A stretch of 64,000 nucleotides of DNA from Candidatus Binatia bacterium. GTDB lineage: Bacteria; Desulfobacterota; Binatia; UBA9968; JAJDTQ01. The notes below the pieces were generated by a model. It saw only the letters and a list, made by a program, of their open reading frames with translations, was not told the DNA's origin and searched no databases. A program made the position numbers and the translations under genes. This document shows, one piece after another, positions 40,147 through 46,489 of the stretch. The first letter of the stretch is position 1. Each line of letters starts with the position of its first letter. The stretch covers positions 1 through 64,000 of the forward strand of contig JAJEAI010000088.1 of assembly GCA_022824205.1 (NCBI GenBank), given 5' to 3'.

Positions 40147-40356
40147 CTAGTGTCCTGTCCCGTACAAAACGTCGTGAAGATGCGCAGGACTTTTTGCCGT
40201 CGGCAAGGAGCGACGACTGTAGGGGCGACCCGCGGTCGCCCCAGTGGCCCCTACCACGCGAGGATGACCCCGGGTCAAGCCCCGGGGTGACGTAACGCAG
40301 CCGACTGCGAAAAGGACAAGCAGATTCATGGCGTTTTATACGGGACAGGACACTAG
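40147..40356. mobile_element. 210-bp MITE with CTAG flanks
   Basis: ctagtgtcctgtcccgtacaaaacg ... cgttttatacgggacaggacactag. Inner palindromes ggggcgacccgcggtcgcccc and accccgggtcaagccccggggt. Confidence 0.85.
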
Positions 40357-41390
40357 CGTTCAACCGGCAGGCCCGCCTCATTCCAGGCGACGAGACCTCC
40401 GGCCAGATTGGAGACGTCCGTGAAACCGGATTTGCCGAGGATGGCCGCCGCGGTGGCGCTGCGCATGCCGGCGCGGCAGACCGTCACCACCGGAGCTTCC
40501 TTGTGTTCGTCGATGTCCTCCAGGCGGTTGATGAGTTCGCGGAGCGGCAGCAGGATGCTGCCGGCCAGATGGCCGAGCTCGCCCGAGTATTCCCCTGGCT
40601 CGCGCACGTCCACCAACAACGGCGGCTTGTCGGAAAGGAGCATTGCCTGAAGGCCTTCGATGTCAACCAGTCGCACCTGCTTGAGCTCGCTCCAGTCCGG
40701 GAAGCTGATCTCGTCCCTTCCGAGGGCGGACTGGTTGGGCTGCAACACCTCCTGGATGTTCTGGGGCGGCGAGAGATTGAGGTTGTTCATCAGGTGGATG
40801 AAGTCGGGCCGCGTGCGGTTGGCGAGACGGGGATTGGTGCGCTTTTCCGCGTCGATGGTGGAGGTGGTGTTGCCGCGGTAGTCGTGGCCGGGGTGGACCA
40901 CGGTTTCATCCGGCAAGGTGAAGAGTTTCCGAGTGACGGAATCGTACTGAGAGCCGGCATCGCCGCCCGCAAAGTCGGTGCGTCCGCAACCGCCGATGAA
41001 CAGGGTGTCGCCGGTGAGGACGTGCCCTTCCACCACGAGGCTCATGCCGTCAGGGGTGTGCCCGGGGGTGTGCAGGACCCGCACGGTGAGGTCGCCGACG
41101 GAAAACTCTTCGCCGTCTTCCAGGTGGATGTCGACGGCCGGGCTGGGCGCCCACTTGTGCATGGCGAACGGCGCACCGACCAGGAAACGCAACTGCGGGC
41201 AGCCGCTCAGGTGGTCGGCGTGGGTGTGCGTGTCGATGGCCATATCCAGTTCCAGGCGGTGGTAGGCAAGCACGGCGAGATACCGTTCCACATGGGTCCA
41301 GAGGGGGTCTACCAGGACGGCGCGTCCCCTGCCCTCGTCCGCTATGAGGTAAGTCTTGCTGCTCTCGCCGTTCAGTTCGCGCAGGATCAT
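40353..41390 (-). CDS. MBL-fold persulfide dioxygenase fused to a C-terminal rhodanese domain
   Basis: THTHADHLSG; LHTPGHTPDGMS; HPGHDYRGNTTSTI; rhodanese loop CRAGMRSA. Confidence 0.92.
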   Translation of the reverse strand: MILRELNGESSKTYLIADEGRGRAVLVDPLWTHVERYLAVLAYHRLELDMAIDTHTHADHLSGCPQLRFLVGAPFAMHKWAPSPAVDIHLEDGEEFSVGDLTVRVLHTPGHTPDGMSLVVEGHVLTGDTLFIGGCGRTDFAGGDAGSQYDSVTRKLFTLPDETVVHPGHDYRGNTTSTIDAEKRTNPRLANRTRPDFIHLMNNLNLSPPQNIQEVLQPNQSALGRDEISFPDWSELKQVRLVDIEGLQAMLLSDKPPLLVDVREPGEYSGELGHLAGSILLPLRELINRLEDIDEHKEAPVVTVCRAGMRSATAAAILGKSGFTDVSNLAGGLVAWNEAGLPVER

Positions 41391-41477
41391 GGCCGTCGTC
41401 TCCGCTTCGCCATGCTTGTCCCGAGCCCGTCGAAGTTCCTGGCCTGAAGTCGTCCGGGGTTCAGGGCAGGACTTGGC

Positions 41478-42635
41478 TCAGAAATATCGCCATAGCCACC
41501 ATTTCTCGAACAGGACCTTGCTCCAGTAGATCATCCGGGACGGTCCCCAGGAGCGCGAGTCGGTGACGCCGAAGGGCGGCCATCCTTGGGGATACGTGGT
41601 GCGATTGGCGGCGGCGCGTCCCGCGCCGCAGGAGAGCAGTCATATGGTGTGCAGGTGCAGGGTCGACAACTCCCCTTCCCCGGTGATCTCCGCCACCAGG
41701 TTGTCCGCCACCACGTCCGCCTCCTGGTGCGCCACGCCGCCGGCCTTGGACGCCGGCATGTTGGCGCAGTCACCGATGGCGTAGACGTTCTCCCACTTGG
41801 TCTCCAGGGTGTCGTAGTCCACCTGGATGCCGGACTCGTTGTCCACCAGTCCGCAGTCGTAGAGCACACTGGAGGGTCGGTGCGGCGGCACCATGAAGAG
41901 CAGGTCGTAGGAAAGCTCGTAGCCGTACAGGCCGTGGACGCGCTTCTTCTCCGGGTCGATGGACTGTATGACGAAGTCGTAATGGATCGTAACGTCGCGT
42001 TTCTTGCTCTGGGCGTCCATCCATACCGACGGCATGTGTTCTTCGCCGGCGGGCTCGGGCTCGCGGGTAAAGTACTGAATGTCCACGAGATCGCGGATAT
42101 TGCGTTCCTTGAAGTAGCTGTCCAGCATCCACTGGGCTTCGTACGGGGCCGGCGGACAGCGGTAGGGACCCAGCGGCACGCCCACGACGACGCGCCCCTC
42201 GCGGAAGCTCTCGAGCGTGGTTTTCAGCCGCAACGCGGCGTCCATCTCCCAAGGATGGTGCGCTCCTTCCGCGAAGCCCGGCAGCAGGTCGGGTCTTACT
42301 TCCAGACCCAGGGACACCACCAGGTAGTCATAGGGGATGGCCGTGCTATCGAGAATCACTTGCTGGCGGCCGGGATCGATACCCAGGATCTCCGCCTGAA
42401 GGACCCGGATGTTGCGCTTCTCGAGACGTTTCAGTTTCCGGGAAATGTCCTCGGGACGGCGCTGCCCGACCATGAGAAACAGGAAAGCGGGCATGAAGAT
42501 GTGATCGGTCCGGCGGTCGATGAGCGTGATGTCGTGGTCCGCCCCGAGGGCGCGGCCGAGTTTTGTGGCCGCCACCACGCCGCCGCTCCCGCCTCCGAGC
42601 ACGACGATCTGTTTCCTGCCGTTGTGGTAGTGCAT
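41478..42635 (-). CDS. sulfide:quinone reductase-like FAD oxidoreductase, candidate read-through of an internal TGA (ORF track stops at 41640)
   Basis: GGGSGGVVAATKLGR FAD site; PYRCPPAPYE second SQR Cys; NVYAIGDCAN. After TGA 41640-41642 the same frame continues LLSCGAGRAAANRTTYPQGWPPFGVTDSRSWGPSRMIYWSKVLFEKWWLWRYF*, which looks like an SQR C-terminus. Confidence 0.7.
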
Positions 42636-42662: not shown

Positions 42663-42872
42663 TCAGGAAGCTTCCCGCTGCCGCCGCTTGGCGCGCAGGG
42701 CGAGGCCCTTGAGATTGCGCATGCGCCGGTCGCGCCACATGCGCTGTTCCTGCCGCCCCTCGTCGGTCAGCTCGGATTCGAATCGTGAAGTGCCGCGGAT
42801 CAGGCGCAGCACCAGATAGTCGGAGCACTCCTTGACCCGCTCCGCAAACCATGTGAAGAGTCCGCCGGACAT
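42663..42872 (-). CDS. small basic hypothetical protein upstream of SQR
   Basis: MSGGLFTWFAERVKECSDYLVLRLIRGTSRFESELTDEGRQEQRMWRDRRMRNLKGLALRAKRRQREAS. Same strand, short gap to SQR. Confidence 0.45.
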   Translation of the reverse strand: MSGGLFTWFAERVKECSDYLVLRLIRGTSRFESELTDEGRQEQRMWRDRRMRNLKGLALRAKRRQREAS

Positions 42873-42879
42873 GGCCTTG

Positions 42880-43845
42880 TCAACGCAGGAAGGTGTCTTC
42901 CTGGGCAAGCTGGACCGCGGCCTGGTCGAAGGCGGCTTCGTCCGGCTCTCCGTCGCCCAGGATGCCGATCTGGCTCAGGAACTGCCCGATCTGGGCGTGG
43001 TCCCGCGGACTCACCGGCGCGTACGGCCGGCCCGGGTCGCCGATGTCCACGCCGAAGTGCTTGAGGGCCGACTTCATGATCGGCGGCAGCCCGTAGGCGC
43101 CCCACTTGCCCGGAAAGAGCGTGAAGCAACGCTGCCAGTAGCGTGCCCTGTCGATGTCGCCGTCCCGGAATGCACGCACCACGCGCGCGCCGATGCGGGT
43201 GCCCGGCGGCGGCATGGTGGCGCCCGCGCCTCCCATCATGAGCGTGGTCAGCAGGGGCTGCATGGTGGTGAAGTAGTTGGCCTTGCCGGCGAGCTGTATT
43301 TGCTCGATGAGCCGGGTGATCTTGGTGATGTCCCTCGAGCTTTCCTTGAAGTAGTCGACCTTGTTCAACTCGCTCAGACGCACGAACGCGTCGAGGGGTG
43401 GGTCCGCGCCGGGACCGGGGTTGTGATAGGCGACGATGGGCAATGGACTCGCCGACGCCACCTCGGTGAAGAACTGTACCAGATCCGAGATGGTCGGTTG
43501 TCCGCCCCACGGCCGGATGGGCATCAGCACCTGGATGAGGTCGCCGCCCACGGCCGCGGCATGCTCCGCCAGATCCAGGATCGTGTCGATGGAGTGGCTC
43601 GACGCCCCGAGGATGACGGGCACGCGCTTGTTGACGATCTCGGTGGCGCGCCGCATCACTTCCTTGCGGTCCTCGAGCGAGAGCACCGTGTATTCCGACG
43701 CTTCCACCGCGGCGATGGAAACGGCGTCGCAGTCGGTCACGAGAAACTCGATCTCGCGCGCGAGGGCGTCGTAGTCCACCCGTCCATCGTCCGTGAACGG
43801 GGTCAGTGCCGCGCCGATGATTCCTCTGATGGGGCTAGCCAGCAT
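42880..43845 (-). CDS. dihydrodipicolinate synthase (DapA) family protein
   Basis: GIIGAALTPFTDDGRVDYDALAREIEFLV; YHNPGPGA; DYFKESSRD (Schiff-base Lys region). Confidence 0.88.
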   Translation of the reverse strand: MLASPIRGIIGAALTPFTDDGRVDYDALAREIEFLVTDCDAVSIAAVEASEYTVLSLEDRKEVMRRATEIVNKRVPVILGASSHSIDTILDLAEHAAAVGGDLIQVLMPIRPWGGQPTISDLVQFFTEVASASPLPIVAYHNPGPGADPPLDAFVRLSELNKVDYFKESSRDITKITRLIEQIQLAGKANYFTTMQPLLTTLMMGGAGATMPPPGTRIGARVVRAFRDGDIDRARYWQRCFTLFPGKWGAYGLPPIMKSALKHFGVDIGDPGRPYAPVSPRDHAQIGQFLSQIGILGDGEPDEAAFDQAAVQLAQEDTFLR

Positions 43846-43862
43846 CCCTTACTCCAGATCTC

Positions 43863-44516
43863 TCACTGCAACTCCGCGACGATCCTCGCGTGCGCCGCGT
43901 CGCTGCCCTGCACCTTGAGGGGCAACGCCATGATGCGGCAGTTTTGGCCCGCGATGGCGCCGAGGTTGGTGACGTTCTCCGCGATCAGCACGTCGTTGCC
44001 CAGCAGGGTGCGGTGCACCGGGAAGTCGAACCCCTTGGGGCGCAGCGGCGTCGGCAGGTCCACCGTGATGCAGTCGATGCCGAAGAGCTTCACCCCGCGC
44101 TCCACGATCCATTCCGCCGCATCGACGGACAGATAGGGATGCATATTGTATTCTTCGCTTTCGAACTTCTCGTCCCATCCGGTGTGCAGCATCAGGATGT
44201 CGCCGCCGTTGACCGCCACCCCGGACCCTTCGAGGTCCGCGGCCGTGACCTCCTCGCCGCCGCCTGTCCGCACCGAGATGACCGCGCCCGGGCCGACGAA
44301 GGCGTCGAGGGGCAGTTCCTCGATGGACTTGCCGTTGGGCACGATGTGCACCGGCGCGTCCACGTGGGTGCCGGCGTGGCACGGCAGGTTGATCTCGGTG
44401 ACGTTGAGCGGGTGTCCCTTGCCGAGGTCGAAGAACCGCTGCACGTGCACGTCCGGCAGCACCGGAATCTTGGGCATGCCGTCGTAGATGAGCCGTGAGA
44501 GATCGATGATGGACAT
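43863..44516 (-). CDS. cyclase family protein (kynurenine formamidase-like)
   Basis: IIDLSRLIYDGMPKIPVLP; LPCHAGTHVDAPVHI (HxGTHxDxPxH). Confidence 0.92.
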   Translation of the reverse strand: MSIIDLSRLIYDGMPKIPVLPDVHVQRFFDLGKGHPLNVTEINLPCHAGTHVDAPVHIVPNGKSIEELPLDAFVGPGAVISVRTGGGEEVTAADLEGSGVAVNGGDILMLHTGWDEKFESEEYNMHPYLSVDAAEWIVERGVKLFGIDCITVDLPTPLRPKGFDFPVHRTLLGNDVLIAENVTNLGAIAGQNCRIMALPLKVQGSDAAHARIVAELQ

Positions 44517-44556
44517 GGGTCGTGTTCCTGACGGTTGAGAGGTCCCTTGCGCCGGA

Positions 44557-45303
44557 TCAGGCGGTGCCGTTGCGCCACGCGGCGTAGATGGGGTCCTTGT
44601 CGACGAAGGCGCGCTTGATGCCGTCGAACGCCAGCCAGAACTGGTCCAGGGTCTTCTGCACCGACTGGCGCACCACTTCCTGCTGCTGGTCGGTGACCGC
44701 GTACCGGCTCACTGCCAAGGGACCCACCTTCATGTGCTCTTCGTCCACCCCCATGTGGAGCGTCCAGTAGCGGATGTCGTCGCTTTCCCGGTCGAAGCCG
44801 TAGTGGGTGGTCAACCCGGTGACGATGCGGCTCATGCGCTCGCTGGCGGTGCCTTCCAGACAGAAACCCTGGCAGGCGTAGAGTTCCAGCCACGAGCGCT
44901 GGTACATGAGCAGGTCGCGCCAGTCGAGGAACGCCGAGGTCTCGGGCAGGGGTTGCACCGCGTCCAGCTCCTCCTTGGAGCCGTAGCCGCAGGCCATGGC
45001 GAAGCGGATGAAGAGGCCGCGGTGGCTGTCCGTGCCGGAGATCTCGCCGGTGCCCTCTTCCACCACGTTCTCGATCCACATTCTCTCCAGCTCCGCGTCC
45101 TCGGGGCAGCGCCCGAGCATGGTCGCGATGGGCTTGGGAAAGGGCTTGGGGAAGAACAGGTAGAACTGGCCCACGAACCCCCTGAGCGCCGCGCGATCCA
45201 GTTCTCCCCTCTCGATCATCCCGATCAGCGGGTTGTCCTTGGAGTGCTTGTCGCGCACGGCGGCGTGTATCTCGTTGACGAACTCTTCGCCGGAAAGTGC
45301 CAT
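44557..45303 (-). CDS. TenA/PqqC-like iron-containing redox enzyme family protein
   Basis: LRGFVGQFYLFFPKPFPKPIATMLGRCP; IENVVEEGTGEISGTDSHRGLFIRFA; HMGVDEEHM. Confidence 0.8.
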   Translation of the reverse strand: MALSGEEFVNEIHAAVRDKHSKDNPLIGMIERGELDRAALRGFVGQFYLFFPKPFPKPIATMLGRCPEDAELERMWIENVVEEGTGEISGTDSHRGLFIRFAMACGYGSKEELDAVQPLPETSAFLDWRDLLMYQRSWLELYACQGFCLEGTASERMSRIVTGLTTHYGFDRESDDIRYWTLHMGVDEEHMKVGPLAVSRYAVTDQQQEVVRQSVQKTLDQFWLAFDGIKRAFVDKDPIYAAWRNGTA

Positions 45304-45466
45304 CGAATATGCTCCCTCGTTCGTTTGATTTCCCTTTGAATGGCCGATCCCGATGTCGCGGACGGCAACATCGGGATCGACGCTAACGCTTCGACGAAAT
45401 AGACTAGTTAGTGGAAAGCGGCCGGCATCGCAACCGTTCGCGGCGACCGGCGCGCGTTCGCCTCCC

Positions 45467-46489
45467 TCAGTCGAGGCCGTAGAAGCGCCGGGCATTGTTG
45501 CCCAGTATGTTCTCCTTGGCGTCCCGCGTCAGGTCGTCCCGCCCCCAGATCAGCGAGCCCGATTCCGGCCAGCTCATGTCCCAATGGGGATAGTCCGAGG
45601 CGTACATGATGGTCTCGGAGCCGATCTCCCCCACCACGTAGCCGATGGTCTTCTCGTCGGGCTCGCAGCCGTAATAGACGTTCTTGCTGGTGATGTAGTG
45701 GCTGGGCTCGTGCTTGCACTCGGGGGCTTCCACCGCGCCGCGTTTCTCCCACTCCTCGTCCATCCGGTCGGACCAGTACGGTATCCAGCCGCAGCCGATC
45801 TCGAGAAACCCGAGCTTGAGGTCCGGGTACATCTCCGGAATGCCCGCGAAGATCATGGCCGTGAGCTGGCGCAGCACCGGGAACGGGTGGCCGGTGGTGT
45901 GGATGGAGATGAACTGGTCGAAGATCTCGCTGCCAGGCTCGTCGCCGCCGAAGGCGTGGATCGCCAGCGGCGTATCGAGCTTCTGCGCTTCCTCGTACAG
46001 CGGAAAGAACTCGGCCGAGCCGAAGTTCTTGCTGTGGGCCTGGGCCGCCATCATGCCGCCCACGAGTCCCAACTCCTGGACCGCGTAGCGCAACTCCTCG
46101 GCCGCGGCCGCCGGGGCGTTGACGGGCAGGTTCGCCACCGCCTTGAGGCGCGGCGACGCCTTGCAGTAGTCCGCGATGAACTCGTTGTACGCGCGGCACA
46201 ACTGGGTCTGGTAGTTGGGCTCGCGGATGTGTCCGATGCCCAAGCCACTGGTCGGGTACATGACCGCCGTGTGGATCTCCTGCGTATCCATGGCCGCCAG
46301 GCGTTCCTCGTGCTTGATGCCGGAGTGTCCCAGCGTTCCGCCCAGGTTGCGGTCGTAGGTTTCCCGCGGAATGAACGGCGGACGCCGGTTCTGGAATGCC
46401 TCGCCCAGGAAGGGCTTGACGAGATCGTCGTTGTCGCGCGCGTGCGCGTCGGCGTCGATCACCTTCACGGACGGATCGATCTTACCCAT
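45467..46489 (-). CDS. amidohydrolase family protein (ACMSD-like)
   Basis: KVIDADAHARDND; GFLEIGCGWIPYWSDRMDEEW; MYASDYPHWDMSWP. Confidence 0.9.
   Translation of the reverse strand: MGKIDPSVKVIDADAHARDNDDLVKPFLGEAFQNRRPPFIPRETYDRNLGGTLGHSGIKHEERLAAMDTQEIHTAVMYPTSGLGIGHIREPNYQTQLCRAYNEFIADYCKASPRLKAVANLPVNAPAAAAEELRYAVQELGLVGGMMAAQAHSKNFGSAEFFPLYEEAQKLDTPLAIHAFGGDEPGSEIFDQFISIHTTGHPFPVLRQLTAMIFAGIPEMYPDLKLGFLEIGCGWIPYWSDRMDEEWEKRGAVEAPECKHEPSHYITSKNVYYGCEPDEKTIGYVVGEIGSETIMYASDYPHWDMSWPESGSLIWGRDDLTRDAKENILGNNARRFYGLD

Follow-up and report, generated by a model that had tools for sequence, protein, structure and literature searches.

The minus strand of the window, the 64,000-nucleotide stretch of Candidatus Binatia DNA analyzed here, carries an ORF (42635..41640) whose translation ends in ...LSTLHLHTI and is followed by a TGA at 41640-41642. 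The same frame continues for 53 codons past this TGA, up to a second TGA at 41478-41480, giving a read-through product of 385 residues in which the first TGA is residue 332. The first-pass annotation had proposed that this codon specifies selenocysteine (Sec) in an enzyme resembling sulfide:quinone reductase (SQR), with an SQR-type tail beyond it. The tail proved to be real coding sequence, conserved in orthologs, and on comparative sequence evidence the gene (41478-42635, minus strand) almost certainly encodes a selenoprotein. It is the last gene of a conserved operon whose upstream part spans 42663-45495 on the same strand. The features of the locus, in the direction of transcription, are:

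44557-45495, minus strand: haem-oxygenase-like diiron protein, start codon uncertain (PF14518; closest relatives of known structure are CADD 4-aminobenzoate synthase and PqqC)

43863-44516, minus strand: PF04199 cyclase, a kynurenine formamidase-like metal hydrolase (Pfam, PDB matches, synteny)

42880-43845, minus strand: DHDPS/NAL-family lyase (PF00701; position shared by 17 of 17 relatives and by three MAGs labelled Acidobacteria)

42663-42908, minus strand: orf81, a small conserved protein just upstream of the SQR-like gene, candidate partner or membrane anchor (position kept in 16 of 17 operons; fusions)

41478-42635, minus strand: putative Sec-containing SQR-like flavoprotein, 385 residues, Sec332, terminal stop TGA 41478-41480 (frame kept in 29 orthologs; Pfam; AlphaFold2; PDB fold match with SQRs, TM 0.85)

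42156-42158, minus strand: codon for Cys160, the catalytic partner of residue 332, within the motif PYRCPPAPYE and corresponding to human Cys201 (117 of 118 homologs have Cys; invariant in A2)

41643-41645, minus strand: Ile331 codon ATA, directly before the TGA, rare and fixed (codon counts in orthologs)

41640-41642, minus strand: TGA predicted to encode selenocysteine at residue 332, in the position of the catalytic Cys379 in human SQOR (ortholog TGA, homolog column, alignment)

41612-41628, minus strand: SECIS-like hairpin, stem CGGCGC/GCGCCG, loop NGGNC, 17 nt between TGA and loop (alignment folding and synonymous constraint)

40353-41390, minus strand: persulfide-dioxygenase-like MBL protein fused to rhodanese, downstream of the SQR-like gene (Lactamase_B and Rhodanese)

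An ORF at 41461-41643, joined to the truncated reading by an ATGA overlap and already called spurious, was rejected as a real gene: its frame is without conservation and breaks in relatives after as few as 12 codons.

The SQR-like protein contains the Pfam domains Pyr_redox_2 and FCSD_central. An AlphaFold2 model built from a 62-sequence alignment (pLDDT 93.2, pTM 0.91) superseded a shallow first structure model (pLDDT 69). Its best PDB matches are the human, Aquifex and Acidithiobacillus SQRs (TM 0.83–0.86 by query length), and also FCSD. The model places residue 332 in a strand (residues 329–337), the first of the C-terminal domain, in the same place as the cysteine in known SQRs; the tail comprises strands and an 18-residue helix. 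An alignment of 118 homologs drawn from many phyla shows Cys 88 times, TGA 29 times and Gly once in the residue-332 column, in agreement with the expectation that homologs would carry Cys there, and the Cys160 column is Cys in 117. The single Gly belongs to a Bacillota homolog (locus L111, 2947-4044), possibly a case of loss of the catalytic residue. Sequence alignment puts residue 332 and Cys160 on two cysteines of human SQOR, which we take to be Cys379 and Cys201, respectively. In the human enzyme, Cys379 and Cys201 form a catalytic trisulfide (PMC11039317), which serves as a mechanistic precedent, and in published SQRs the first β-element of the C-terminal domain carries a conserved cysteine with residues of the quinone site on either side (PMC9666304).

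The human, Aquifex and Acidithiobacillus SQRs have the fold, the Cys201/Cys379 positions and a C-terminal helix in common with the window protein; human and bacterial SQRs are, however, only 20–26% identical to it, and the window protein has Sec for the second Cys and, in the model, one C-terminal helix. The flavin subunit of FCSD shares FCSD_central, the CPPxPYE motif and the fold, but the window protein is distinguished by Sec and a conserved aromatic tail, WWLWRYF. No cytochrome partner gene, as for FCSD, is present among the neighbor genes examined. The fold, with its two catalytic Cys (or Sec) positions, places the protein in the SQR superfamily. The three redox cysteines of type I SQRs, on which the first-pass annotation had drawn, are represented in part: Cys160 and the TGA column have counterparts among them, but the first cysteine is absent, which fits a type III or FCSD-like enzyme rather than type I.

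The order diiron-oxidase-like protein, cyclase, DHDPS-like lyase, (orf81,) Sec-SQR on one strand is found in all 17 relatives whose upstream sequence is long enough. In MAGs labelled Acidobacteria, orf81 forms an in-frame N-terminal extension of the Sec flavoprotein, clearly so in L054 (4818-5978) and apparently in L051 (3964-5268); in some other relatives it has a hydrophobic N-terminus. Together, the fusions and the hydrophobic N-terminus suggest that orf81 may be a membrane partner of the flavoprotein. The persulfide dioxygenase-rhodanese gene adjoins the SQR-like gene in five of five genus relatives, but does not lie beside it in the order's other family, so that a sulfide role is plausible in the window's genus and not secure for the protein family.

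The Sec flavoprotein probably performs sulfur/flavin chemistry of the SQR type; that sulfide itself is the main substrate is an evenly balanced proposition. The designation “sulfide oxidase” can accordingly be kept only in part: it was drawn from the fold and catalytic residues, which fit, but the conserved operon does not look like known sulfide oxidation, to which it has no obvious link. It is possible, if doubtful, that the protein is instead an obligate, lineage-specific selenoenzyme whose substrate contains sulfur or selenium but is not sulfide, and that it carries out the redox reaction of an undescribed pathway for which the operon codes (CADD/PqqC-like diiron oxidase, PF04199 cyclase, DHDPS-like lyase, orf81). 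Such a role would suit an order of four enzymes kept in 17 of 17 relatives, when the persulfide dioxygenase-rhodanese neighbor is confined to the window's genus, and the separation of the family from other SQRs by a long branch (1.39 changes per site). It sits less well with both catalytic residues, the fold and the C-terminal tail, all of which are those of sulfide-oxidizing enzymes, and with the persulfide dioxygenase-rhodanese gene lying directly downstream in that genus.

Whichever the substrate, the reading of the TGA as selenocysteine is strongly supported by its conservation, the Cys column, the SECIS-like hairpin and the Sec machinery of the host. Among 58 relatives searched, 26 genomes of the order to which the window belongs, counting its own, have an ortholog; three MAGs labelled Acidobacteria (67–70% identity) bring the set to 29. 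With the exception of fragments stopping short of the site, the matches reported a single internal TGA, and each of the 27 orthologs whose tail is readable has TGA at codon 332. The terminal stop of the same genes differs (TGA, TAA or TAG), so the constraint to TGA applies to codon 332 alone. Searching 148 genomes across the class recovered the same 26 carriers and no Cys version of the ortholog. The tail is near-invariant (...GAGRAAANRTxYPxGWPPF...IYWxKxxFEKWWLWRYF), and its pairwise differences at codon positions 1, 2 and 3 are 13%, 10%, and 49%. This substitution pattern is that of a translated frame and, on these figures, the tail is under strong purifying selection.

It is most improbable that the TGA is a true stop, whether of a 331-residue truncated SQR or through a recent nonsense mutation or sequencing error. 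A plain ORF caller does end the gene there, but both the TGA and the downstream frame are kept in the orthologs covering the site, the tail is selected as described and modelled as a confident C-terminal domain, and in two of the 29 genomes with the same TGA the gene lies on a contig longer than 4 Mb. Conservation across the 29 genomes refutes nonsense mutation and sequencing error.

Beginning at nucleotide 12 after the TGA, with its loop from nucleotide 18, a hairpin of the form CGGCGC-NGGNC-GCGCCG forms in all 27 ortholog sequences, one with a mismatch. The stem, whose arms are codons 337, 340, and 341, had already been seen in the fold of the window's own sequence. Minimum-energy folding of 56 nt of a single sequence gives a stability that is not unusual (z −0.6), and synonymous constraint and alignment folding were therefore used instead. 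Of 1108 windows of 30 nt scanned along the aligned CDS, the one with this hairpin has the best conserved structure (−11.3 kcal/mol, where the windows average −0.5 with an sd of 1.7). Among 88 codons with an invariant residue of four-fold type, the third base is fixed only at Gly337 (GGC) and Arg340 (CGC), with the next lowest synonymous variation at Ala341 (GCC), tied with Ser210. The bSECIS model has 16–37 nt between TGA and loop; the 17 nt observed here fall inside this range, and the loop contains a G. On spacing and constraint, the hairpin is a predicted bacterial SECIS element. No compensatory base change was found in its arms among the 27 sequences, where covariation is not demonstrable because the arms hardly vary, and no Rfam family matched at the TGA.

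Where the residue before the TGA is Ile, its codon is ATA in 19 of 19 rows, whereas elsewhere in the same genes ATA makes up 25 of 423 Ile codons (6%). The base preceding the Sec TGA is A or G in all orthologs and, with ATA, may constitute a context signal for Sec insertion.

The host genome holds the machinery for which the first-pass annotation had suggested a search: one strong tRNA-Sec (73 bits; anticodon TCA by ARAGORN), and selA (576 bits), selB (385 bits), and selD (373 bits) clustered on contig C39. The host selD (G000 contig C39:8365-9291, locus L044) has one in-frame TGA itself and probably encodes a Sec-containing SelD, as known elsewhere. Within the order, tRNA-Sec was detected in 23 of 26 carrier genomes versus two of nine non-carriers (Fisher p 0.0005, uncorrected for kinship); the three carriers in which it went undetected are two MAGs 67–80% complete and an assembly in 790 contigs. 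That the TGA is read as another amino acid, such as Trp through genome-wide recoding, or bypassed by readthrough has a negligible probability: the frame would be open either way, but TGA is a terminal stop in the same genes and Trp does not occur in the column among the 118 homologs (on which grounds Trp was rejected), and the host has the complete Sec machinery and the gene a SECIS-like hairpin. Overall, the best explanation, and a very likely one, is an SQR/FCSD flavoprotein whose second catalytic Cys has been replaced by a SECIS-decoded Sec.

The first-pass annotation knew of no description of a selenium-dependent sulfide oxidase, but a Sec-containing SQR is on record. NCBIfam NF049943 is a “type III sulfide quinone reductase, selenoprotein subtype,” tabulated in a review (PMC13188914) with deep-Sep (PMC12013277) as its source, and deep-Sep reported a selenoprotein “NAD(P)/FAD-dependent oxidoreductase” of Desulfosediminicola in 2025 (PMC12013277). 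The NF049943/Desulfosediminicola protein belongs to the same superfamily, with Sec or Cys in the same alignment column, and the HxxU motif given for Sec-SQR in the review (PMC13188914) matches HTIU in the window protein. However, the window protein scores 262 bits against the NF049943 cut-off of 525, no better than Cys homologs do, and no protein in the host genome lies above that cut-off. The hairpin of NF049943 also differs from that of the window type, and its members in the same phylum mix Cys and TGA, whereas no Cys members were found in the window's lineage.

In the tree, a single clade (SH-aLRT 100) unites the window's 22 Sec rows and leaves out the Sec rows of NF049943; nearest to it is a clade of Thermoproteota and Thermoflexus relatives (support 86), on a long branch. 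Five Cys/Sec changes are needed, of which at least three are forced. A single clade for all Sec rows is rejected (p-AU 2e-11), as is one for the window and NF049943 groups (p-AU 0.004), values that are optimistic because the groups were defined only once the tree was known. Membership of NF049943 was rejected on the bit score and the joint-clade test, and the two together mark an independent Cys/Sec exchange in the window's lineage. This Sec-SQR lineage appears to be undescribed, though another Sec-containing relative was reported in 2025. Two further homologs, from Chloroflexi (L094, 4664-5764) and Clostridia (L095, 4345-5352), have an isolated TGA at the same column and are candidate Sec-SQRs outside both Sec groups; their source genomes have strong tRNA-Sec.

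We propose a membrane-associated flavoprotein of the SQR/FCSD superfamily, in which TGA 41640-41642 would be decoded by host SelB and tRNA-Sec via the downstream SECIS hairpin. At the FAD, Cys160 and Sec332 would be linked by a (poly)sulfide or selenenylsulfide bridge, to be opened by a sulfur nucleophile, either sulfide or another thiol-type substrate. Cys160 may pass electrons through an FAD adduct to quinone, and Sec332 would carry the sulfane sulfur and release it, probably at a higher rate than Cys.

Any plain ORF caller will cut each Sec-SQR gene short. No Cys version is known among the orthologs of the lineage, so Sec seems indispensable to it, and the conserved operon suggests a pathway that, to our knowledge, is not described. 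Selenium apparently reached the same catalytic site in SQR-like enzymes on several independent occasions, making this position a natural test of what selenocysteine adds to persulfide chemistry.
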